From: Adhaeribacter arboris | GTDB lineage: Bacteria; Bacteroidota; Bacteroidia; Cytophagales; Hymenobacteraceae | Assembly (NCBI RefSeq): GCF_003023845.1 | Contig: NZ_PYFT01000001.1 | Span: forward strand, 3,410,001-3,474,000 | DNA length: 64,000 nt | Direction: 5' to 3' | Shown here: one piece after another, positions 2,499 to 61,250 of the stretch | How positions within the stretch are numbered: the first letter of the stretch is position 1 | How the letters are laid out: each line of letters starts with the position of its first letter | The notes under the pieces: generated by a model | Database searches by the model: none | What the model saw: only the letters and a program-made list of their open reading frames with translations | Told to the model about the DNA's origin: nothing | Program-made: the position numbers and the translations under genes

Positions 2499-3755
2499 AT
2501 GACCCGAAAACAGCGCATCAGCATTATTCTTATTTTAGGAACCCTCGCTACTATCAGTCCTTTTTCGATTGATATGTATTTACCGGGTTTTCCGGCCATT
2601 GCGCGGGATTTAAACACTACTATCGACCAGATTCAATTATCCTTAACCAGTTATTTGATTGGTATTGCCATTGGTCAGTTACTATATGGCCCTTTATTAG
2701 ATAGATTTGGTCGCAAAAAGCCACTTTATATAGGTTTAACCGTTTACGTGCTCGCGTCTATTGGTTGTGCCTTTACTCACTCGGCCAATAATTTAATAAT
2801 GATGCGGTTTATTCAGGCAATTGGAGGCTGCGCGGGCATGGTAGCGGCGTTGGCTTTGGTACGAGATTTATTTCCGGTAGGTGAAATTGCCAAAGTACTA
2901 TCGCTGCAAACGCTGGTAATCAGTGTATCTCCTATGATTGCTCCTACTGTGGGAGGCTATGTTACGGCTGCGTTTGGCTGGCAGTTTATTTTTTTGGTAT
3001 TAGCCATAATCGTGGGCTTGGTAGTTTTGGGTATTTACTTTTTTTTACCAGCTGGCCGGCCACCGGACATTTCCTTTTCCTTATTACCGGGGCCGGTATT
3101 AAGTAACTTTTATTCGGTTTTAAGAAATCCGCAGTTTCTTACTTATTTGCTGGCGGGAGGAGTTGGAGCAGCCGCTCCGTTTGCTTATATATCGGGTTCG
3201 CCGGATGTATTTATGAATATTTACAAAGTAAGTGAGCAAGAGTACGGATGGATCTTTGCCTTTTTAGCCGCGGCCATGATTGGTTCTACCCAACTGAATA
3301 CTCCTTTATTGAAACGGTTTTCCAGTGAACAACTCCTCTCTTTTGCTTTGTTTTGGCAAACCTGCATTGGTATCTTATTGGTAGTTGGAACCGTTTTGGG
3401 CTGGTACGACAAATTTAGCCTAATTATTTTAATTTTTTTGTTCCTGGCTGGTCAGGGTTTAAATGTACCTAATTCATCGGCTCTGTCGCTGGCTCCTTTT
3501 GCCCGACAGGCAGGTAGTGCCTCGGCCTTGTTAGGCTGTTTCCGAATGGGAATTGGAGCGGTGGCTTCGGCGGCGGTAAGTGTGCTGCATAACCAAACCG
3601 TTTTACCTATGGTAGGTGTAATGGCCTTGTGCGCCTTTATAGCAGCCATTATTTTATTTATCGGTAAAAAACAAATTATCCTGGAGCCACCCTTACCCGA
3701 TCCGGATGAATCAGAGTTACAAGAAACCACGCAACCTGTACCTCTTAAGAAATAG
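2499..3755 (+). CDS. Bcr/CflA family multidrug efflux MFS transporter
   Basis: 418-residue, twelve-helix major facilitator of the drug:H+ antiporter (DHA1) type. Diagnostic signs are the DMYLPGFPAIA segment at the end of helix 1 (residues about 25-35), which is the Bcr/CflA hallmark, the motif-A loop after helix 2 (GPLLDRFGRKK, about 64-74), an Arg in helix 4 (VRDLFP), and the motif-C-type proline/glycine run in helix 5 (SPMIAPTVGG). The C-terminal 25 residues are a charged cytoplasmic tail. Family members export chloramphenicol, bicyclomycin, sulfonamides or cysteine; the substrate here is unknown. The next gene starts 24 bp downstream on the same strand, so the two are probably cotranscribed. 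Confidence 0.93.
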   Translation: MTRKQRISIILILGTLATISPFSIDMYLPGFPAIARDLNTTIDQIQLSLTSYLIGIAIGQLLYGPLLDRFGRKKPLYIGLTVYVLASIGCAFTHSANNLIMMRFIQAIGGCAGMVAALALVRDLFPVGEIAKVLSLQTLVISVSPMIAPTVGGYVTAAFGWQFIFLVLAIIVGLVVLGIYFFLPAGRPPDISFSLLPGPVLSNFYSVLRNPQFLTYLLAGGVGAAAPFAYISGSPDVFMNIYKVSEQEYGWIFAFLAAAMIGSTQLNTPLLKRFSSEQLLSFALFWQTCIGILLVVGTVLGWYDKFSLIILIFLFLAGQGLNVPNSSALSLAPFARQAGSASALLGCFRMGIGAVASAAVSVLHNQTVLPMVGVMALCAFIAAIILFIGKKQIILEPPLPDPDESELQETTQPVPLKK

Positions 3756-3779
3756 TTTCAGCTATAATTCGTCAAGAAT

Positions 3780-4679
3780 ATGCACTATAAAGTATTAGGT
3801 AAATCAGATCTACAAGTAAGTACCGTAAGTTTCGGCTGCATGTCGTTACCGGCGGCTAACCCAGCAGAGAGCATTCAGCTTTTAAATCAGGCCTTTACCA
3901 ATGGAATTACTTATTTTGACACAGCTGACTTGTACGATAAAGGAGAAAATGAAAAATTAGTGGGACAAGCCTTTCGGGAGAACCGTCAACAAGTAATTAT
4001 TGCTACCAAAGTAGGGAACCAATGGCGCTCCGATGGCAGTGGTTGGGATTGGAATCCGCGTAAAGATTATATTTTAAAAGCCGTAGAAAGCAGCCTGCAA
4101 CGTCTGCAAACCGATTACATTGATTTATACCAGTTACACGGCGGCACCCTCGACGACCCCATTGACGAAACCATTGAAGCATTTGAAAGACTCCAACAGC
4201 AAGGTAAAATCCGGTATTACGGTATTTCTTCAATCCGGCCAAATGTTATCCGGGAATACGTTAAACGGTCGAATATAGTAAGTGTGATGATGCAGTATAG
4301 CTTGCTGGACCGTCGCCCGGAAGAAACGGTACTAGATTTATTAAAAGAAAGCCAAATTGGAGTTCTTGCCCGGGGCAGTCTGGCCCAGGGATTATTAACG
4401 GGTAAGCCGCCCAAAGTTTACCTTAACTATTCAGAAAAAGAAGTAGAAAAAGCAGCGCAAGCAATACAAAATCTGGTTAAGGAGAATCTTTCACCTGCTA
4501 CTATGGCGGTACAATATGTGTTGCATCCTCCTGCGGTAGTATCTGCTGTTTTAGGTATTCGAACACTACCTCAATTGCAGGAAGCCTTGCACATCCCGAA
4601 TGCCGAAGCATTATCAGAAAATAATATTCACTTTTTACAGGAATCTATCCGGCCGCTTCTTTACGAACAGCACCGCTAA
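3780..4679 (+). CDS. Aldo/keto reductase
   Basis: 299-residue (alpha/beta)8 NADPH-dependent oxidoreductase. The catalytic tetrad is intact: Asp47 and Tyr52 in FDTADLY, Lys77 in ATKVG and His120 in YQLHGG. The C-terminal cofactor region (VLGIRTLPQL, about 257-266) also fits. Length and motif spacing agree with the YajO/Tas-like branch of the superfamily. It follows the Bcr/CflA transporter by 24 bp, suggesting an operon; a reductase beside an efflux pump could detoxify reactive carbonyls, but that is inference. No terminator hairpin lies immediately after the stop. Confidence 0.93.
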   Translation: MHYKVLGKSDLQVSTVSFGCMSLPAANPAESIQLLNQAFTNGITYFDTADLYDKGENEKLVGQAFRENRQQVIIATKVGNQWRSDGSGWDWNPRKDYILKAVESSLQRLQTDYIDLYQLHGGTLDDPIDETIEAFERLQQQGKIRYYGISSIRPNVIREYVKRSNIVSVMMQYSLLDRRPEETVLDLLKESQIGVLARGSLAQGLLTGKPPKVYLNYSEKEVEKAAQAIQNLVKENLSPATMAVQYVLHPPAVVSAVLGIRTLPQLQEALHIPNAEALSENNIHFLQESIRPLLYEQHR

Positions 4680-5499
4680 ACCATGCGGCAAGAACTTATA
4701 TTTTGGAATGGAAGCAAAAGATAACCTGACCTTCATTACTCAATCCACTACTTTTTAATATTATAAAATTCCTCTTCTATAGTAGCTATAGCACCTAGCT
4801 AAATATATTGGTTTTGCTAAACTTTTGATAAAATTCTTGAGGTAATCTTTTAAAACCAGCACTTAAAAGCGAAAGGTTAATAGAAACCAGAATGAGAAAT
4901 TTAAATCAGAGAGGTTTATAACAATTTTAGTTTTAATCCTAATTTTTGCAACGGATCTAGAAAAAAAACGCTCTACAATATTTAAAAAAGCTTTTATTTG
5001 TCATAACTTAACTTAGCAATTCCGTTACAAGTTGCACTTTACCTTCATTCCCTTTCCGGTGGTTACTGAAGCTGTAAATTATTTTGCAAGTAAAAGGTAT
5101 AAATATTTGTATATTAAGTTTTATGAATTTATAATCGTATAATATTTTATTACTTACAGGATAGTCTTACTAGCAGAATTAGTAAAACTATTTAAATACT
5201 CATGCTACTTACTTATTTATCACAAACCCATTTATAATTTCAAACTAGCGAATGGAACCTGTACAAATTTTATTTATTCCTCCCTAAAGATTATCAAAAC
5301 CTTCTTACGACTTTAGCATAACCATGACCGGACCTTCGCTTCCGGTCATGGTCGTTTTAAAGGCTAACCAAAACAATTTACACCTTATTCTTACCTAACG
5401 TTTTGCTTAGGCGCGCAAACTCACTTTGCCTGTGTTAGCCAGTAATTCTTTTAATAAGCTTTTAGATCAACTACTAACATCAAAACCAGAATAAATAAA
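4680..5499. other. Long intergenic spacer with one orphan hairpin
   Basis: About 820 bp of very AT-rich DNA between convergent genes. No reading frame with coding character is visible. The only distinct structure is the hairpin at 5321-5352, listed separately. Confidence 0.5.
5321..5352. other. Orphan perfect hairpin
   Basis: A 12-bp perfect stem (arms 5321-5332 and 5341-5352) closed by an 8-base loop. It lies 640 bp beyond the nearest upstream stop codon and over 200 bp from the manganese catalase stop, so it is not obviously the terminator of either gene. It could end an unannotated small transcript. Confidence 0.5.
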
Positions 5500-5530
5500 A
5501 AAGTTACTACCCGTGACAGATGGTAACTTT
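5500..5530 (-). terminator. Probable terminator of the manganese catalase gene
   Basis: Eight-bp stem (5500-5507 with 5523-5530) flanked by A-runs and T-runs, about 38 bp past the catalase stop codon on the minus strand. Confidence 0.5.
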
Positions 5531-5567
5531 AAAAAGGTTAAACCAATAATATGGTTAAAATTAAATT

Positions 5568-6470
5568 TTAATATTTAATACCCATTTTCTTCGCAATATC
5601 TTTAAACATCTCCGGATCAAAATCATCGGCGCCCGGGGAATTCAATTGTGGTTCCTCATCTAAGTCAGGCGCTGGAGCGCCTTCCGGAGCACCAAAACGT
5701 ACCTCCAATGGTTGACCATCTTCCGGATGAGGACCGTTAAATACTAAACCGGCTTTCTGATAATCATCTGGACTGAAGGTGTAAAGAATACGATGCACTC
5801 CATTTGCTTCATATTTACGCGTTTCCGGGAAAGCTTTATTGCTCAATTCAGGCACCGGAATTAATTTTGTTACATCAGAACCAGTTAAGTGCTCTAACGC
5901 CCTCGCGTAGGCTACTACGTGTAATCCACCGCGAACCAGTAAATAACCTACCATTTCGCGAGCGGTTGGATCGGTTACCATTTCGTAAACCCGCATTTTA
6001 TTAGCCCGGGCACCGCACTCCAGGAAAAAGTTGTGCAGCAAATCTAATCTTAAATTACCACTGCTGAACACATTCTGGCCGGTCCAGAAATTACCCATAG
6101 AGTCTACGGGCAAAGCAGATTGGTTGCTGGCGATAAAATGGTAGGTATTACGGGCATCGGTTGCATTTTTAAGTGGGCCTGGCTCCGGATCAAAACCCCT
6201 TTTAGTAGTACCGGTTAATAATAAGTTAATGGCGTAACTAACCGCTTCTATATGACCATATTCTTCGCCGGCAATACTGCAAATCAGATCATAAAAAGGG
6301 CGTAGACGCTTCCGGCCCCGAAAATTAAACGACTGATAAGTGTAGTTCATCAGGGTAGACATTTCCCCGAATTTACCACCTAATAACTCTTGAACCGCCG
6401 CCGCATCGTTCGGCGACGGGTTATTAGGGGTAGGCAGCTCTATCGGCAGCCGATCCATTTTTAAAATCAT
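5568..6470 (-). CDS. Manganese catalase family protein
   Basis: 300-residue ferritin-like di-manganese catalase that would disproportionate hydrogen peroxide in the cytoplasm. All five metal ligands of the family can be placed: Glu36 (KFGEM), Glu70 and His73 in the EEYGH motif, Glu151 (LECGAR) and His184 (GGLHVVAY); the 33-residue interval between the last two matches the Lactiplantibacillus plantarum enzyme. The C-terminal arm (about 240-300) is acidic and proline-rich, with the usual short lysine-rich end. Members of this family occur in spores or in non-heme oxidative defence. It is monocistronic with a 400-bp AT-rich leader upstream and a weak hairpin downstream. Functional assignment rests on the complete ligand set. 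Confidence 0.95.
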   Translation of the reverse strand: MILKMDRLPIELPTPNNPSPNDAAAVQELLGGKFGEMSTLMNYTYQSFNFRGRKRLRPFYDLICSIAGEEYGHIEAVSYAINLLLTGTTKRGFDPEPGPLKNATDARNTYHFIASNQSALPVDSMGNFWTGQNVFSSGNLRLDLLHNFFLECGARANKMRVYEMVTDPTAREMVGYLLVRGGLHVVAYARALEHLTGSDVTKLIPVPELSNKAFPETRKYEANGVHRILYTFSPDDYQKAGLVFNGPHPEDGQPLEVRFGAPEGAPAPDLDEEPQLNSPGADDFDPEMFKDIAKKMGIKY

Positions 6471-6871
6471 AGTTTATTAGTTAATAGGTTAAAAATAAGA
6501 ACAGAATAATGCTTTGCTAAACGTTTGAACCGGAGCAAGGTTTGTAAATAAGTAGTTATTTCTAGAATAAATTATTCGGGAACAAAGGTTGGCAGAAGGT
6601 AAATCTGCTTAGTTAACCGCGGAGAAAGCATTTATTAAGAGCGGAGAAAACAGCATTTATTTTTATAAGTTAACACTCCCATTTGCAGTGCTAAACTGCG
6701 CTATAAACGCGCTGTTTCAACAATCACACTTACCTTATTAGCGTCGGAACGATACTTTCTTACAGCAGGCGGGTAAAAATTTGACAGAATTAATTTAGGT
6801 AAAGTATTTACGGAGTATGGCACTGGATTAACTTTTATCAGAATAGCTTATAACCTACTTAAAAGCGGCTA
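6471..6871. other. Intergenic spacer
   Basis: Four hundred bases between two minus-strand genes. It holds the leader of the manganese catalase gene and the 3' end of the glycosyltransferase transcript. I see no gene or clear terminator. Confidence 0.45.
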
Positions 6872-7858
6872 TTAGTGGTTTAGCACAAAATCGAAGTTTA
6901 TTTCGCGCATGCATTTAAAATGGCCTTGTGGACATTTGCTGTAGCCAATTTTAGAGCAAGGCCGACAATATAAATTTGGTCGCTCGAAAATTAAAAATTC
7001 GGTTTTGTACGGGTACATGCCGAACTCCGGCACGGTGTTGCCCCAAATCGAATAAATCTTTTTCTTAAAAGCGGCCGCAATGTGCATCAAGCCGGTGTCG
7101 TGGCTGAAAACGGCGATAGCTTGTTTTACCAGCGAAGCCGATTGATTTAAGTTATATTTCCCGCAGGCGTTGTAGATGGTTGTTGGTTGTTGGTTGCTGG
7201 TTGCTCGATTTTGAAAGAATTTAGTAATTTCTTCAGCCGTAGCGGTATCTTCTTTGCCGCCCAGTAAAACAGCCGGAGCATTTATTTTAGTACAAACCTC
7301 AATGATTCGTTCGGTAGGCAGTCGTTTAGTAGCGTGTTGCGCTCCAATGGCAAATGCATAATACCCATTTTGGTGCGTAAGAGGTAAGTCTGTAAGCTTT
7401 ACTTCGTCGACAGCCGGAATAAAATAATCCAAACCTTGGCCATCGTTTTTTATTCCTAACTCAGAAGCAGCCGCTAGGTAGCGGTCTACAATATGCACAT
7501 CCGGCAATTTGTTTACCTTCAACCGGACCAGTAACCATTTCCGGAAATTAAGTTTATCGAAGCTTTTACCGGGTACTCCTAATTTAAATTTAATGACGCT
7601 TGTCCGGAGACTATGGTGCAAATCAACCACGTAATTAAATTTTTCGGCTTGCAATTCAGTAATTAAATCACGTAGACTTTCGCGCAGATAATGGATCTGA
7701 TCGAGGTACGGATTATGCGCTACAATAGAGCGGAAACTCCATTTAGTCGCGTAATGAATACGAGCCTCCGGTAATTGCTGCTTCAATGCCCGCACTACGG
7801 GAGTAGTAAGCACAATATCGCCAATGGAAGAAAAGCGCAGTACTAATATTTTAGTCAT
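6872..7858 (-). CDS. Glycosyltransferase family 9 (heptosyltransferase-like)
   Basis: 328-residue GT-B fold enzyme of family GT9, which adds ADP-heptose or similar sugars to lipopolysaccharide core at the cytoplasmic face of the inner membrane. Evidence is the N-terminal LRFSSIGDIVLTTPV motif (residues 7-21), the central FAIGAQHATKRLP segment and the donor-binding motif SHDTGLMHIAAA (about 253-264). A cysteine-rich C-terminus (CRPCSKIGYSKCPQGHFKC, about 298-316) is typical of Bacteroidota members. The ATG overlaps the TGA of the upstream PolX-like gene by 4 bp, so translation is probably coupled. A low-complexity stretch around residue 218 (ATSNQQPTT) is encoded by a GTTGTTGG-type repeat that also occurs in spacers of this window. 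Confidence 0.9.
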   Translation of the reverse strand: MTKILVLRFSSIGDIVLTTPVVRALKQQLPEARIHYATKWSFRSIVAHNPYLDQIHYLRESLRDLITELQAEKFNYVVDLHHSLRTSVIKFKLGVPGKSFDKLNFRKWLLVRLKVNKLPDVHIVDRYLAAASELGIKNDGQGLDYFIPAVDEVKLTDLPLTHQNGYYAFAIGAQHATKRLPTERIIEVCTKINAPAVLLGGKEDTATAEEITKFFQNRATSNQQPTTIYNACGKYNLNQSASLVKQAIAVFSHDTGLMHIAAAFKKKIYSIWGNTVPEFGMYPYKTEFLIFERPNLYCRPCSKIGYSKCPQGHFKCMREINFDFVLNH

Positions 7859-54395: not shown

Positions 54396-57300
54396 ATGAA
54401 TCTACCTTTAATCAAATCCATTCTCGCACTTTATTACCGGGGATATAGTTTCCGGGGGCCAGCTTTATTCTACAAACCGAACTCCTGGCATATTTTATTT
54501 TTATTACTAACCTCGACGTTTTTTTCTATTTCCTCTAATGTTCGTGCCCAGGAAGAACTAATAGGTTTAATGTCTAACGGCGGTCCGCAGGGAAAAGGAA
54601 CGTTATTTTCCGTTAAACCTACCGGAGCCGGCTATTCCGTTTTAAAAGGTTTTGCCGACTGGGGGAAAAGTCCGGAAGGCAGTTTAGTTAAAGGAGACGA
54701 CGGAAATTTTTACGGTCTTACTTCTTTGGGAGGCACCTATAATTACGGTACCATTTTTAAAGTAAGCCCGGCCGGGGCGGTAACTGTTTTGCATCAATTC
54801 GATTATAATACCACCGGCGGTTATCCGAAGGGCAGTTTGGTAAAAGGCGCCGATGGCAACTTGTACGGCATGACTGGTTCGGGTGGACCGGGCAGTTACG
54901 GCAATATTTTTAAAATTACGCCTAATGGTACTCTTACCGTAATCAAGAATTTTTCTTACAGTACCGATGGCGCTAAACCAAACGGCCATCTAATAGTAGC
55001 GAAAGACGGTAACTTCTACGGCCTAACTTACAGTGGCGGAACGTACGGCTATGGTACCATTTTTAAAATGACTCCTGGCGGAACGTATACGGTTTTAAGA
55101 TCCTTGGATTACACCACCGACGGCGGCAATGCTTACGGCAGTTTAGTACAAGGAAAAGACGGCAATTTTTACGGCATGACGTACTGGGGAGGCACCTACA
55201 AGTACGGTACAATTTTTAAAATTACTTCTACGGGTTCGTTTACCGTGCTGCGTCATTTGCAGCCCGCCGACGGAATTTACCCCCAAGGAAATAACTTAGT
55301 AGCTGCCACCGATGGTAATCTTTACGGAATGCTGCCCAGAGGAGGAGATAACTACTCAGGTACTATTTTTAAAATAACTACAAAAGGAGCTTTTACCGTT
55401 ATCCAGCATTTAGACGTTAAAAAAGGCACTAACCCGCTTGGCAGTCTGGCACAAAGTACCGATGGCGCTTTATACGGCATGACCTATTACGGCGGCACGA
55501 ATGGTAACGGCACCATCTTTAAAATTACTACCAGCGGAACCCTTACGGTCTTATATAATTTTGCTAAATCTCCTGACGGAATTCTGCCCGCCCCGGATGG
55601 CGCGCATCCTGCCGGAGATTTGTTCCGCAACAGCGACGGCAATTTTTATGGCCTTACCTTCGAAGGGGGAAAAAACAGGTTTGGCACTATCTTTAAAATA
55701 ACGCCTTCGGGCACTTTTACGGTATTAAACAGCCTTAATGGTGGTTCGCAGGGCAATGCCCCTTACGAGAGCGTGGTTCTAGCCAAAGATGGCGCGTATT
55801 ACGGCACCACCAGCACCGGTGGTACGTATAACCAAGGCACCATTTTTAAATATTGCGGCAACACGTACACGGTACTCCGGTCGTTGAATAAAAACACGGA
55901 TGGCAGTGCGCCTCTGGGCAGTTTAATACAAGGTACCGACGGTAATTTCTACGGGATGGCTTCCGAAGGTGGCACTAACGGGGCCGGTACTATTTTTAGA
56001 ATAACTCCCGGCGGCAGCTATTCCGTATTGCATCATCTGAAAACCGCAGATGGTATTAATCCGTACGGCAGCCTAACCCAAGGTAAAGACGGTAATTTTT
56101 ATGGCCTAGCCAACGGGGGTGGTACGACTGGAGCCGGCACCATTTTCAAAATAACACCTAGCGGCACCTTTACGGTTTTATGGAACTTAACCGCCACTAC
56201 AGATGGCCGTTACCCGGAAGGAAATCTGGTACAAGGCCCGGATGGTAATTTTTACGGCACCAATAGTATCGGCGGTACGAATAACTACGGTACTATCTTT
56301 GAAATTTCGCCCACTGGTACGTTTACCGTTTTAAAACAATTAAACAGTCTGCCTGACGGCAATGCGCCTTTAGGAAGTTTGGTATTAGGGAAAGATGGTA
56401 ATTTTTACGGTACTACCAGCTCGGGGGGCAGCAGTTCGTACGACGGTGCTATTTTTAAAATATCCCCATCCGGTACCTACACGGTATTAAAGCGTCTATC
56501 CGGAGCTACCGACGGTGAAACTCCTAAAGGCAATCTGGTGCAAGCCAGCGACGGGAACTTTTACGGTCTGACTAGCAAAGGTGGTAAGAACAACGCCGGT
56601 ACCTTATTCCGCATTACTCCTTCGGGTACTTACACGGTTTTAAAGCATTTTAATTTAATTACCGATGGCGGCGCGCCCATGGGCAGTTTAATTGTAAAGA
56701 AAGTTAACCCGCTGGTAGCGAATGCACAAAGCATTACTACCTCCGAAGACACGCCAAAAGCAATTACGCTCACCGGATCGGGCGGCTCGCCGCTTACCTA
56801 TGCCATTCGCTCTAATCCCCAGAACGGTACAATTAGCGGTACCGGCGCGAATCGTACGTATACCCCCAAAGCTAATTTTACCGGCAAGGATTCTTTTACC
56901 TTCACGGTAAGCGTGGGCTGTGAAGTATCGGCTCCGGCTACGGTAACCATTAACGTAACGGCGGTTAACGATGCCCCGGTACTTGCGGCTATTGGTAACA
57001 AAACCGTAGAGAAAGGTTCTACCTTAACGTTTACCGCTAAAGCCACCGACCCAGACGCGGGCCAAAGCAAAACCTTCTCCTTAGTCGGCGCGCCTGGGGG
57101 GGCAACCATCCACGCGGTTTCCGGTGTCTTCAACTGGAAACCTTCGGTAGCAGGTAACTACAGTTTCAGCGTGAAAGTAACGGATAACGGCTCCCCGGCT
57201 CTTTCCGACCAGGAAACCATTACGGTGAAGGTAATCAACTCAACGGGCAGTTTGGTTCGGGTAAATGCCGGCGGAGAAGCCGCCGCTACTTCCCTGGGTA

Positions 57301-57971
57301 GCTTTAGTGCCGATACTTATTTTAGCGGGGCTACCAGTATATCGGCTACTACTTCACCGATTGCCAGTACTACCGATGATATTCTTTACCAGAACAACCG
57401 CCGGGCAACAGATGTGGGGGGCAGCTTTAGCTACAATATTCCGGTGAGCAATGGTACTTATACCGTGAAGTTGCACTTTGCCGAAACCTTCTATACTACT
57501 ACCGGACAGCGGAAATTTAACGTGAAAGCCGAAGGCGTTAGTTGGTTAAGTAATTACGACATTGTAGCCGCGGCGGGAGGTGCGAAAGTAGCCGTAGTAG
57601 CAACCAAGAACATTACCGTGGCCGATGGAAATGTTACGCTGCTCTTTTCTTCGGTGGTAGATAAAGCTTGTGTAGCCGCCATTGAAGTGCTGCCGGCAAG
57701 TGGTGCCGAATCTGATAAAGCTACTACCAACCTGATTGCTAATTTGTACCCGAACCCGGCCGAAAATTCTCTTACTATTGCTTTAAATACAGCAGTGGAG
57801 AAAGTAGAAGCTAAGATTACCAATAACACGGGCGATGTGGTAAAAACAATAGATCAATCCGTAGAAAACAACAAGTTGCAGATAGAAATATCAAATTTAG
57901 AAGCGGGTCTGTATCAGCTACACGTTCAAACTCCGACCGGCGTGCAAGTTTACCGGTTCGTTAAAAAATAA
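54396..57971 (+). CDS. T9SS-secreted GloVer tandem-repeat protein with malectin domain
   Basis: 1,191 residues. A signal-like segment spans about 25-50 (the first 24 residues are an unusual extension). Fourteen GloVer (TIGR03803-type) repeats of about 55 residues follow to about residue 770, each with DGNFYG-T--GG---YGTIFKITP-G--TVL; the first is partial. Then an Ig-like domain (about 775-860), a second He_PIG-type Ig domain (about 865-945), a malectin domain (VRVNAGGEAA onward, about 950-1,105) and a T9SS type A tail (NLYPNPAENSL to end). The repeats likely form a propeller. It is probably an exported adhesin or glycan-binding surface protein. Confidence 0.9.
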   Translation: MNLPLIKSILALYYRGYSFRGPALFYKPNSWHILFLLLTSTFFSISSNVRAQEELIGLMSNGGPQGKGTLFSVKPTGAGYSVLKGFADWGKSPEGSLVKGDDGNFYGLTSLGGTYNYGTIFKVSPAGAVTVLHQFDYNTTGGYPKGSLVKGADGNLYGMTGSGGPGSYGNIFKITPNGTLTVIKNFSYSTDGAKPNGHLIVAKDGNFYGLTYSGGTYGYGTIFKMTPGGTYTVLRSLDYTTDGGNAYGSLVQGKDGNFYGMTYWGGTYKYGTIFKITSTGSFTVLRHLQPADGIYPQGNNLVAATDGNLYGMLPRGGDNYSGTIFKITTKGAFTVIQHLDVKKGTNPLGSLAQSTDGALYGMTYYGGTNGNGTIFKITTSGTLTVLYNFAKSPDGILPAPDGAHPAGDLFRNSDGNFYGLTFEGGKNRFGTIFKITPSGTFTVLNSLNGGSQGNAPYESVVLAKDGAYYGTTSTGGTYNQGTIFKYCGNTYTVLRSLNKNTDGSAPLGSLIQGTDGNFYGMASEGGTNGAGTIFRITPGGSYSVLHHLKTADGINPYGSLTQGKDGNFYGLANGGGTTGAGTIFKITPSGTFTVLWNLTATTDGRYPEGNLVQGPDGNFYGTNSIGGTNNYGTIFEISPTGTFTVLKQLNSLPDGNAPLGSLVLGKDGNFYGTTSSGGSSSYDGAIFKISPSGTYTVLKRLSGATDGETPKGNLVQASDGNFYGLTSKGGKNNAGTLFRITPSGTYTVLKHFNLITDGGAPMGSLIVKKVNPLVANAQSITTSEDTPKAITLTGSGGSPLTYAIRSNPQNGTISGTGANRTYTPKANFTGKDSFTFTVSVGCEVSAPATVTINVTAVNDAPVLAAIGNKTVEKGSTLTFTAKATDPDAGQSKTFSLVGAPGGATIHAVSGVFNWKPSVAGNYSFSVKVTDNGSPALSDQETITVKVINSTGSLVRVNAGGEAAATSLGSFSADTYFSGATSISATTSPIASTTDDILYQNNRRATDVGGSFSYNIPVSNGTYTVKLHFAETFYTTTGQRKFNVKAEGVSWLSNYDIVAAAGGAKVAVVATKNITVADGNVTLLFSSVVDKACVAAIEVLPASGAESDKATTNLIANLYPNPAENSLTIALNTAVEKVEAKITNNTGDVVKTIDQSVENNKLQIEISNLEAGLYQLHVQTPTGVQVYRFVKK

Positions 57972-58155: not shown

Positions 58156-58590
58156 TCAACTTTCTAAATCGTTAAATCTTTCAGCTATTAAGTCTCTTAC
58201 TTTCTCTACGGTTAAGGGTTTTAAGATGTACGGCGCGGCATACTCACTAGCCCGGACGGTATCTTGCGGGTGCGAGGAAGTAGACAGCAGGGCAATAACG
58301 GTATCTTGCTTTACCTTATCCGCCAAATCGTTATGGTACATTTCTAAAAATTCGAAACCATCTAACATAGGCATATTTACGTCCAGAAAGATTAATTCCG
58401 GTTTAAAATAATTAGGATCGGCCGAATTGAAATTGCCTTTTTCTATTTTTTGCAGATACTCCAAGGCATTCAGGCCGTTGCTAAATACCCGAATGTTTTC
58501 GGTTACTTCCATCCGGTTTAACAAACGATGATTCAAAAAATTACTGGTTTCATTATCATCAATTAACAAAACACCTTTCAGCTTTCGCAT
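58156..58590 (-). CDS. Single-domain response regulator
   Basis: 144-residue CheY-like receiver without an output domain. Acidic pocket Asp11/Asp12, phospho-acceptor Asp70 in LIFLDVNMP, Ser103 in ALLSTSS and Lys124 in YILKPL are all in place. It follows the ethylene-receptor-like kinase gene by 16 bp and is surely its partner in an operon. With no DNA-binding domain it must pass the signal by protein contact, perhaps to a phosphotransfer protein or motility or exopolysaccharide machinery. Large spacer between helix 2 and strand 3 is usual for Bacteroidota members of this class. Confidence 0.95.
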   Translation of the reverse strand: MRKLKGVLLIDDNETSNFLNHRLLNRMEVTENIRVFSNGLNALEYLQKIEKGNFNSADPNYFKPELIFLDVNMPMLDGFEFLEMYHNDLADKVKQDTVIALLSTSSHPQDTVRASEYAAPYILKPLTVEKVRDLIAERFNDLES

Positions 58591-58606
58591 AATTAAAAAA
58601 TTGCCG

Positions 58607-59878
58607 TTACTTTTTAGGAATAAAAACCCGGAAGGTAGAACCCTCGCCTGGCTTACTAGTTACCTCTACTTTACCATGATTATATTCCAGAATACGTTTC
58701 ACAATAAATAATCCTACTCCATTCCCTTCCACATCGTCACGTAAGCGTTTAAACAAAGAAAATATTTTTTTCTCGTGCTTAATTAAATCAATGCCCATGC
58801 CATTATCGGTTACCGCTATAATGTTAAAATTTTCATTGGCCGTGCTTGTAATTTCCACAACCGGGGTTCGTTCCGGGGAACGGTATTTAATCGCATTACT
58901 TACCAGGTTGTACAAAATACTTTTTAAGTTCTTACGCGAAAACCAAACAATTGGGTTTTCTTCGAAGTGAGTCTGTATGCTGGCACCGGATTGCGTTATC
59001 ACTTCGGCTAAACTGTCCTGGACTTCCCGGAACACTTCCGTTATGGGTATTTGAGTGAGTTCTTCTTCGGTATTTTTCTGAATTTTACTTACTTCTGTTA
59101 AATCGCTGATAGTACGGTGCATCTGTTGAATGGCGTTCTCTAACTTCTCTACCACTTCCTTAACTTCAGATTCTATGGGCGGCAACTCTTCTTTTAAAAC
59201 GCTTAAAAGGCCTTCGGCATTAATTACCGGCGATTTAAGATCGTGCGACGCACAATAAACAAAATTATCCAGGTCAGCGTTAATCCGGATGAGCTCGCCA
59301 TTTTTAAGCACTAAGGTTTTCTCCGCTTTTTTTCTTATTTCTACTTCTTTTTCCAATTCGCGGTTAGCCCGGATAAGTTGAGCCGTTCGTTGGTTTACCC
59401 GCGTTTCCAGTTCATCATTTACCCGACGTAAGGCAGCTTCCGCTTTGTGTCGTTCCGCGATCTGCCATCTTAATTCGTCGTTGGCAAAAGCTAAGGTATC
59501 GGAACTAGGAATCAGCAAAATTTTAGGTAAAGAACGTAATAGAATAAAGGCGGTACCTAAGGATAAAAGCCCCGTTATAATCTTTACTAAACTGGCTACA
59601 TCGTAAATCGGGTCCCAAACGGTCCAGATATCGAGTAAATGGGTAGCGCCGCAGGATAAAATGAACATCCCAAACAACACAAAAACGTGTTTCTGCACCA
59701 AATCTTTCCGTTTACGAGCCAGGTAAAAGAGCATAAACGGAATAGAAAAGTAAGCCAATCCGGTTAAGGCATCGCCGGTTACGGTCGGCCATAGAATAAC
59801 GTCTTGCCACTGATAGCAATGCCCATGCGGCATAAACGTGGAAGTATCTATAAAAGCCAGCATTATTTTAGTCGTCAT
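58607..59878 (-). CDS. Sensor histidine kinase with plant-type ethylene-binding domain
   Basis: 423 residues from the ATG at 59878 (an in-frame TTG lies 27 bases earlier). Three membrane helices (about 34-117) match the ethylene-binding domain of plant ETR1: Asp36, Tyr43, Ile46, Pro47, Cys76 and His80 fall in GDALTGLAYFSIP and LSCGATHLLDIW with exactly ETR1 spacing (Asp25, Tyr32, Ile35, Pro36, Cys65, His69). Cys and His bind the Cu(I) needed for ethylene. Then a coiled coil (about 130-200), HisKA with His212 (CASHDLKSP), and an HATPase with N328 (NLVSNAIKYR), DNGMGI and GNGVGLF. The partner receiver gene follows by 16 bp. There is no GAF domain, unlike ETR1. Confidence 0.93.
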   Translation of the reverse strand: MTTKIMLAFIDTSTFMPHGHCYQWQDVILWPTVTGDALTGLAYFSIPFMLFYLARKRKDLVQKHVFVLFGMFILSCGATHLLDIWTVWDPIYDVASLVKIITGLLSLGTAFILLRSLPKILLIPSSDTLAFANDELRWQIAERHKAEAALRRVNDELETRVNQRTAQLIRANRELEKEVEIRKKAEKTLVLKNGELIRINADLDNFVYCASHDLKSPVINAEGLLSVLKEELPPIESEVKEVVEKLENAIQQMHRTISDLTEVSKIQKNTEEELTQIPITEVFREVQDSLAEVITQSGASIQTHFEENPIVWFSRKNLKSILYNLVSNAIKYRSPERTPVVEITSTANENFNIIAVTDNGMGIDLIKHEKKIFSLFKRLRDDVEGNGVGLFIVKRILEYNHGKVEVTSKPGEGSTFRVFIPKK

Positions 59879-60255: not shown

Positions 60256-61236
60256 TTACTCTATGTAACCTTGTTCCCGCATCCAATCGTCGTTGTAAAT
60301 TTTAGCCAGATAGCGCGTACCGTGGTCGGGTAAAATTATTACCATTACATCTTGTTCGGTTAAGTGCTGCCGGGCATACTCCAGCGCCCCGAACACCGCC
60401 GAACCACAAGACCAGCCCACAAACAAACCTTCTTCTTTGGCTAATCGCCGGGTCATTACCGCGCCGTCTTTGTCGGTTACTTTAGTAAAATGATCAATTA
60501 AAGTAAAATCTACATTTTTAGGCAGAATGTCTTCGCCGATGCCTTCGGTTTTATACGGATAAATTTCGTTTTCATCGAAAACGCCGGTTTCCTTGTATTT
60601 TTTAAATACCGAACCGTAAGTATCAATTCCAATAGCTTTAATGGCGCTGTTTTGTTCTTTTAAGTACTTGGAAATGCCGCAAATGGTACCGCCGGTACCT
60701 ACCCCCGTGGCTAAATACGTAATTTTGCCTTCGGTTTGCTGCCAAATTTCGGGGCCGGTGGTTTCGTAATGCGCCGCCGTGTTCGACAAGTTATCGTACT
60801 GATTCGGGTAAAAAGAATTCGGAATTTCGCGGTTTAGCCGTTTGGCAACCGAGTAATAAGAACGCTCATCTTCAGGGGCTACGTTGGTAGGGCAAACTAT
60901 TACTTCGGCGCCCACTGCCCGCAGAATATCCATTTTCTCTTTACTCTGTTTATCGGTAAGGGTAAAAATACATTTGTAGCCGCGGGCAGTGGCCGCAATG
61001 GCTAAACCCATGCCCGTATTACCCGAAGTACCTTCAATGATAGTACCGCCGGGTTGTAGAATACCGGCTTTTTCCGCGTCCTCAATCATTTTAAGGGCCA
61101 TGCGGTCCTTTACCGAATTACCCGGATTAAAATATTCGACTTTAGCCAGAATGGTAGCCTTAAGCCCATCGGTTACTTTGTTTAACTTTACCAGCGGCGT
61201 TTTGCCAATAGCTTCGGAAATATGATTTAAATACAT
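60256..61236 (-). CDS. PLP-dependent cysteine synthase family protein (CysK/CBS catalytic core type)
   Basis: 326 residues from the ATG at 61236; an in-frame TTG at 61245 overlaps the promoter box. The PLP lysine is Lys43 in NPGNSVKDR, the substrate loop is EGTSGNTGMG (about 64-73), and the phosphate loop is TGVGTGGTI (about 177-185). The length and the sequence KEKMDILRAVGAEV fit the cystathionine beta-synthase catalytic core, lacking the regulatory CBS pair, so it could make cysteine from O-acetylserine or cystathionine from serine and homocysteine. It is cytoplasmic and monocistronic, with a terminator on its 3' side. Confidence 0.93.
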   Translation of the reverse strand: MYLNHISEAIGKTPLVKLNKVTDGLKATILAKVEYFNPGNSVKDRMALKMIEDAEKAGILQPGGTIIEGTSGNTGMGLAIAATARGYKCIFTLTDKQSKEKMDILRAVGAEVIVCPTNVAPEDERSYYSVAKRLNREIPNSFYPNQYDNLSNTAAHYETTGPEIWQQTEGKITYLATGVGTGGTICGISKYLKEQNSAIKAIGIDTYGSVFKKYKETGVFDENEIYPYKTEGIGEDILPKNVDFTLIDHFTKVTDKDGAVMTRRLAKEEGLFVGWSCGSAVFGALEYARQHLTEQDVMVIILPDHGTRYLAKIYNDDWMREQGYIE

Positions 61237-61242
61237 GAAAAG

Positions 61243-61250
61243 CAAATTTA
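61243..61250 (-). promoter_or_regulatory. -7 box of the cysteine synthase family gene
   Basis: TAAATTTG on the minus strand fits TAnnTTTG and ends 6 bp before the ATG at 61236, implying a very short leader. No good -33 partner is visible at the usual spacing. Confidence 0.4.

Follow-up and report, generated by a model that had tools for sequence, protein, structure and literature searches.

Ethylene receptors proven in bacteria have been met in the literature in cyanobacteria and Azospirillum, and a case in Adhaeribacter would extend ethylene sensing to the Bacteroidota. In PMC11819568, residues 1 to 130 of AzoEtr1 are reported to bind 14C-ethylene, the D35A and C75A variants did not rescue the mutant, and ethylene is predicted, as a prediction only, to lower AzoEtr1 autophosphorylation. 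For sequence comparison, AzoEtr1 was taken to be the 525-aa product of L218:2483-4060 on plasmid ABSP7_p1 of A. brasilense Sp7, whose gene overlaps that of a 135-aa receiver coming next, because these are the sizes stated for AzoEtr1 and AzoRR-Etr1 and the plasmid is the one named in that paper. In plants, Asp25, Cys65 and His69 are named as the ETR1 copper site in PMC12643061, and the RAN1 ATPase is described in PMC12586476 as essential for plant ethylene receptor biogenesis and as interacting with ETR1.

The window analysed here is a 64,000-nucleotide stretch of the Adhaeribacter arboris genome (NZ_PYFT01000001.1, positions 3,410,001 to 3,474,000), in which the following features were mapped.

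58156..58590, minus strand: stand-alone receiver, 144 aa (PF00072, E 4.2e-12)
58607..59878, minus strand: ethylene-binding-domain histidine kinase, 423 aa (ATG start; open reading frame and Pfam)
58607..59269, minus strand: HisKA and HATPase_c of the kinase
59489..59878, minus strand: N-terminal 130 residues of the kinase, with a PHGHCY motif and three predicted membrane helices
60198..60236, minus strand: hairpin resembling a terminator, in the gap that separates the kinase from the gene upstream (the stretch contains 3 such patterns, and shuffling predicts 2.4)
60256..61245, minus strand: CBS-like upstream neighbour, a conserved PLP enzyme of the cysteine synthase/cystathionine beta-synthase group

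The kinase (59878 to 58607) and the receiver (58590 to 58156), separated by 16 bases, lie in the coordinates and frames given by the first-pass annotation. A TTG 27 bases upstream of the kinase ATG is a possible start; relatives start near the ATG. Pfam searches agreed with the earlier description of a histidine kinase with an ETR1-type domain beside a CheY-like receiver, and the profile comparison that had been proposed for the kinase N-terminus matched residues 28-121 to ETR1_N (PF25487, E 1.9e-32, 111.8 bits against a cut-off of 27), with HisKA at residues 204-267 (E 3.1e-8) and HATPase_c at residues 316-422 (E 2.1e-21). The claimed absence of GAF was also confirmed, neither GAF nor PAS being found in the kinase at E <= 0.001. 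The kinase contains His212 in SHDLKSP, 324 NLVSNAIKY, 358 DNGMG and 385 GNGVGLF, the phosphoacceptor histidine and the three ATP-binding motifs. The receiver phosphorylation residues D11, D12, D70, T104 and K124 are intact, and no output domain was found in the receiver by Pfam. The upstream PLP enzyme does not reach the curated cut-off of any NCBIfam model shown. Given the hairpin upstream of the kinase, the kinase and receiver may perhaps form a transcription unit of their own. On the plus strand, 54396-57971 encodes a 1191-aa protein in which a repeat of the type GNFYGxTxxGGxxxxGTIFKITPxG occurs many times, together with a malectin domain and a type IX secretion tail. Loci L051, L195 and L196 carry a relative of this protein next to the receiver.

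Residues D36, Y43, I46, P47, I73, C76 and H80 of the window kinase match ETR1 D25, Y32, I35, P36, I62, C65 and H69 at a constant offset of 11, accounting for all seven ETR1 binding residues, and K99 corresponds to the conserved lysine Lys91. The first-pass annotation had listed six of the seven at a constant offset, and I73, equivalent to Ile62, adds the last. AlphaFold2 was run on residues 1-140 with an alignment of 61 of 80 named loci, and it predicted three long helices (residues 26-56, 63-88 and 92-121; mean pLDDT 88.3, pTM 0.71) with a pLDDT of 84-96 per block of ten across residues 21-130. The residues of the ethylene site are carried by the three predicted membrane helices. Comparison of the helix model with the PDB found only common helical arrangements. 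The first-pass annotation had named a model that places Cys76 and His80 apart as evidence against a receptor; this is a weak test, since His80 lies four positions after Cys76 on a single predicted helix (63-88) and any model with that helix sets them side by side.

A PF25487 profile search found a single place in the window's own 7.25-Mb genome and no match in any of 14 control genomes, and the ethylene-domain match is therefore far beyond chance. The one copper P-type ATPase above cut-off in the same genome carries no weight, that family matching 14/14 control genomes. The kinase is 44% identical to AzoEtr1 over residues 8-147 (E 2e-36), and AzoEtr1 D35 and C75 correspond to D36 and C76. Judged by sequence, the window kinase is thus a homologue of a proven ethylene receptor with its site residues intact, which upholds the earlier proposal of a candidate ethylene receptor, and it likely binds ethylene. 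For the earlier suggestion of control over surface or plant-associated behaviour, the analysis turned up nothing in favour and nothing against.

We consider it probable that the window kinase and receiver form an ethylene-receptor two-component pair. Cu(I) would be held by Cys76 and His80 of the three-helix domain, with help from Asp36, and ethylene would bind to this copper. The signal would then travel down the coiled coil and lower His212 autophosphorylation, following the prediction made for AzoEtr1 in PMC11819568, and less phosphate would reach Asp70 of the receiver. Adjacency, gene order and synteny suggest phosphotransfer from kinase to receiver. The receiver, because it has no output domain, would presumably act through protein contact.

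The ethylene domain as such is not rare, as judged from its wide occurrence. PF25487 was found in 32/150 Hymenobacteraceae genomes and in 21/395 genomes drawn from the phylum, and a domain-alignment scan of species genomes returned at least 574 confirmed relatives in many phyla, of which the best 80 were kept; the scan patterns select the FMPHGHC and cysteine-histidine motifs, which are thus invariant by construction. Among 150 fetched domain loci (131 unique), 93 have the exact letters of the window at eight sites. The first-pass annotation identified the candidate pair correctly and implied a greater novelty than it has, since such domains occur in many bacterial phyla and the layout of a kinase with a stand-alone receiver has been published (PMC11819568). 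The AzoEtr1/AzoRR pair is a published parallel; of more interest are two results that go beyond the first-pass annotation, namely what became of the receptor in relatives and the ATPase fusions described below.

Several variant forms were seen. FHGWLY in place of PHGHCY marks a second bacterial subtype (L002, L003, L006, L010, L011, L033, L037 and L043), which occurs in further genera of the family and also in the class beyond it. L050 and L153 have a very divergent ETR1_N with Asn at the Cys65 place, in L050 on a HisKA_2 kinase (Pfam) and in L153 with a similar H-box motif. The ethylene-domain frame of L035 (G518) is broken by an in-frame TGA, and L061:5708-6337 (minus strand) encodes a 209-aa protein consisting of the ethylene domain only, with PHGHSF instead of PHGHCY and without a kinase domain or adjoining receiver.

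A Cu(I) P-type ATPase is fused to the ethylene domain in four Bacteroidota genomes from two families, and the fusion includes the kinase where the contig is long enough.

L068, 5440-10038, plus strand: fusion of 1532 aa with HMA, copper P-type ATPase, ETR1_N, PAS, HisKA and HATPase_c
L069, 7389-11987, minus strand: fusion of 1532 aa
L186 (G628, another family), 3436-7578, minus strand: fusion of 1380 aa in the same arrangement as L068, 512.2 bits
L152 (G605), contig edge: junction of ATPase and ethylene domain visible

The L068 ATPase scores 559.7 bits with TIGR01511 against a cut-off of 397. L068 and L069 each have a receiver gene after the fusion; in L186 the fusion is followed by a receiver-PAS protein. 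The fusions turned up in overlapping draws of 395 genomes from the phylum, 80 from the family and 149 from the class, and in 3/4 genomes of genus g124. They tie copper transport to an ethylene-binding domain, and a limited literature search found no publication on a fusion of this kind. In each of the four, Asn replaces Asp25 and Asp replaces Lys91, and the Asp to Asn change lowers ETR1 ethylene affinity about 100-fold (PMC13012798). These fusions support an alternative in which the domain of the window kinase reports the availability of membrane Cu(I) and ethylene is not the natural ligand. We think this unlikely for the window protein, which retains both Asp and Lys, is unfused and has no copper gene among its annotated neighbours, and whose two-gene layout is shared with AzoEtr1, an ethylene-binding protein (PMC11819568).

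The order CBS-like gene, kinase, receiver is found in the window and in 13/20 fetched loci; the trio is absent in the other seven (L054, L055, L057, L061 and L068 to L070). A kinase-only tree was built without five FHGWLY-type family domains, the second domain of G029 and the truncated L017; in it, the 26 family rows of window type (11 canonical, 15 from genus g6) form one clade (support 99/97) apart from other g6 kinases. Receiver orthologues (E <= 1e-34) were found in 72/150 family genomes, with one match each: 49 in g3, 15 in g6, seven in g1 (the window's genus) and one in g2. Only 10 of the 72 genomes (four g1, six g3) have an ethylene-domain kinase with the Cys, His, Asp and Pro residues and the phosphoacceptor His. 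Four of these 10 kinases have Leu for Ile35 (L009, L012, L014 and L015), and the Adhaeribacter-genus orthologues L014 and L015 also have Thr for Lys91. The g2 genome (G007) has a canonical domain and Asn replacing the phosphoacceptor His, and 15 genomes, all of g6, have a degenerate form of the kinase. The remaining 46 (three g1, 43 g3) have no ethylene-domain kinase. In L013 / L060:4877-6148 (minus strand), a canonical ethylene site occurs with SNDLKAP, with Asn instead of the phosphoacceptor His.

We inspected 20 of the 49 g3 genomes, picked among those without a kinase beside the receiver (L198-L217), and in 20/20 the CBS-like gene and receiver are still adjacent, with the kinase gone from between them. 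By profile search, 17 of the 20 have no ethylene domain at all; in G013, G051 and G114 a window-clade kinase is located elsewhere. Within the window's genus, the receiver is retained and the kinase lacking in G009, G014 and G024. Kinase fragments are retained at two loci: a C-terminal fragment in G028 (L210), and in G024 a 340-base stretch at the kinase spot that is 73% identical to the window kinase gene and broken across frames. At L195, L196 and L197 the kinase is missing or a remnant and the receiver is kept, with the CBS-like gene alongside except in L195. Neither receiver nor kinase was found in the eighth g1 genome, G034, which is 78% complete. A tree of the CBS-like protein from 37 loci requires at least seven changes in kinase presence. 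The DD, D, T and K residues of the receiver are kept in all 24 aligned sequences, namely those of the window and of kinase-less loci in g1 (three) and g3 (twenty). The receiver beside the CBS-like gene is therefore the stable part in this family, and the kinase came and went. Since the receiver is present in many relatives that lack the kinase, the two genes do not form an obligatory pair, and gene content of this kind suggests that the receptor serves a conserved receiver as an optional input.

In genus g6, a full-length orthologue of the window kinase is present in 15/16 genomes, and the copper cysteine is replaced in 15/15 unique sequences (Gly in 14, Ala in one; L018-L030, L156-L170). All 15 have also lost Ile35, Pro36 and Ile62 and have Arg for the phosphoacceptor His; His69 is kept, and Asp25 is Glu in 13 and Asp in two. 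The adjacent receivers in six aligned g6 loci, read by eye, keep their phosphorylation residues. The cysteine change is a single event on a domain tree of 128 rows that leaves out L035, L050 and L153, the last two of which have Asn at that place. In 5/5 canonical pairs the domain showed less nonsynonymous divergence than the kinase, although one pair was nearly equal (0.185 vs 0.186). The domain showed more than the kinase in 7/7 g6 pairs, where domain dN/dS was 0.085 to 0.372 in the six pairs for which it was computable; the pairs have members in common, and in several the synonymous sites approach saturation. Between the window and its nearest relative, L016, nonsynonymous divergence was 0.104 in the domain and 0.181 in the kinase, with dN/dS of 0.053 and 0.106. 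This pattern indicates that an intact site goes with a conserved domain, and a lost site with a domain whose constraint is relaxed but not absent.

It is very unlikely that the window kinase has little function left in a lineage that is losing the system, or acts independently of ethylene, as might be proposed from the repeated changes in kinase presence and the three receiver-only genomes of its own genus, one with a kinase remnant, since the window gene is intact, has every catalytic and ligand residue and shows purifying selection in both domain and kinase.

Together with a probable ethylene-receptor pair in the window, the relatives suggest a broader reading in three parts, which we advance jointly and tentatively, at somewhat short of even chances. 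The receiver would be the pathway core in Hymenobacteraceae, and the ethylene receptor kinase a removable input that has been switched off in at least three ways: by deletion, by loss of the phosphoacceptor His (Asn in G007, Arg in g6) and by loss of the copper cysteine (g6, 15/15). Purifying selection would maintain the former receptor of g6 as a metal-free pseudokinase, which may regulate the receiver through binding rather than phosphorylation. Elsewhere in Bacteroidota, the Cu(I)-ATPase fusions with changed Asp25 and Lys91 would be copper-loading sensors. The same receiver occurs in sets of related species whose receptor is intact, disabled or absent, so what the receptor contributes can be tested directly, and the fusions, with copper transport and an ethylene-binding domain in a single polypeptide, are relevant to how plant ETR1 gets copper from RAN1.

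Plant ETR1 has a GAF domain, a receiver within the same protein and a Cys-x-Cys start. The window kinase has no GAF that could be found, its receiver is on a separate protein and it has PHGHCY instead of Cys-x-Cys, although the seven binding residues and the lysine of Arabidopsis ETR1 are at corresponding places and the aligned domain is 35% identical. SynEtr1 of Synechocystis (slr1212), compared by its description in PMC11819568 and PMC7700396, is likewise a bacterial ethylene-binding kinase signalling to a response regulator (slr1213), but it has a chromophore-binding GAF and its regulator activates small-RNA transcription, neither of which is seen in the window. Like the window pair, AzoEtr1 and AzoRR-Etr1 are described in PMC11819568 as an N-terminal ethylene domain with the seven required residues, a histidine kinase and a stand-alone receiver encoded directly downstream. 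The window receiver is barely similar to AzoRR, so a shared output cannot be assumed. AzoEtr1 is described in PMC11819568 as also having a PAS domain, whereas Pfam found none in the window kinase, and the H boxes differ (AHEMSQPLN vs SHDLKSP).
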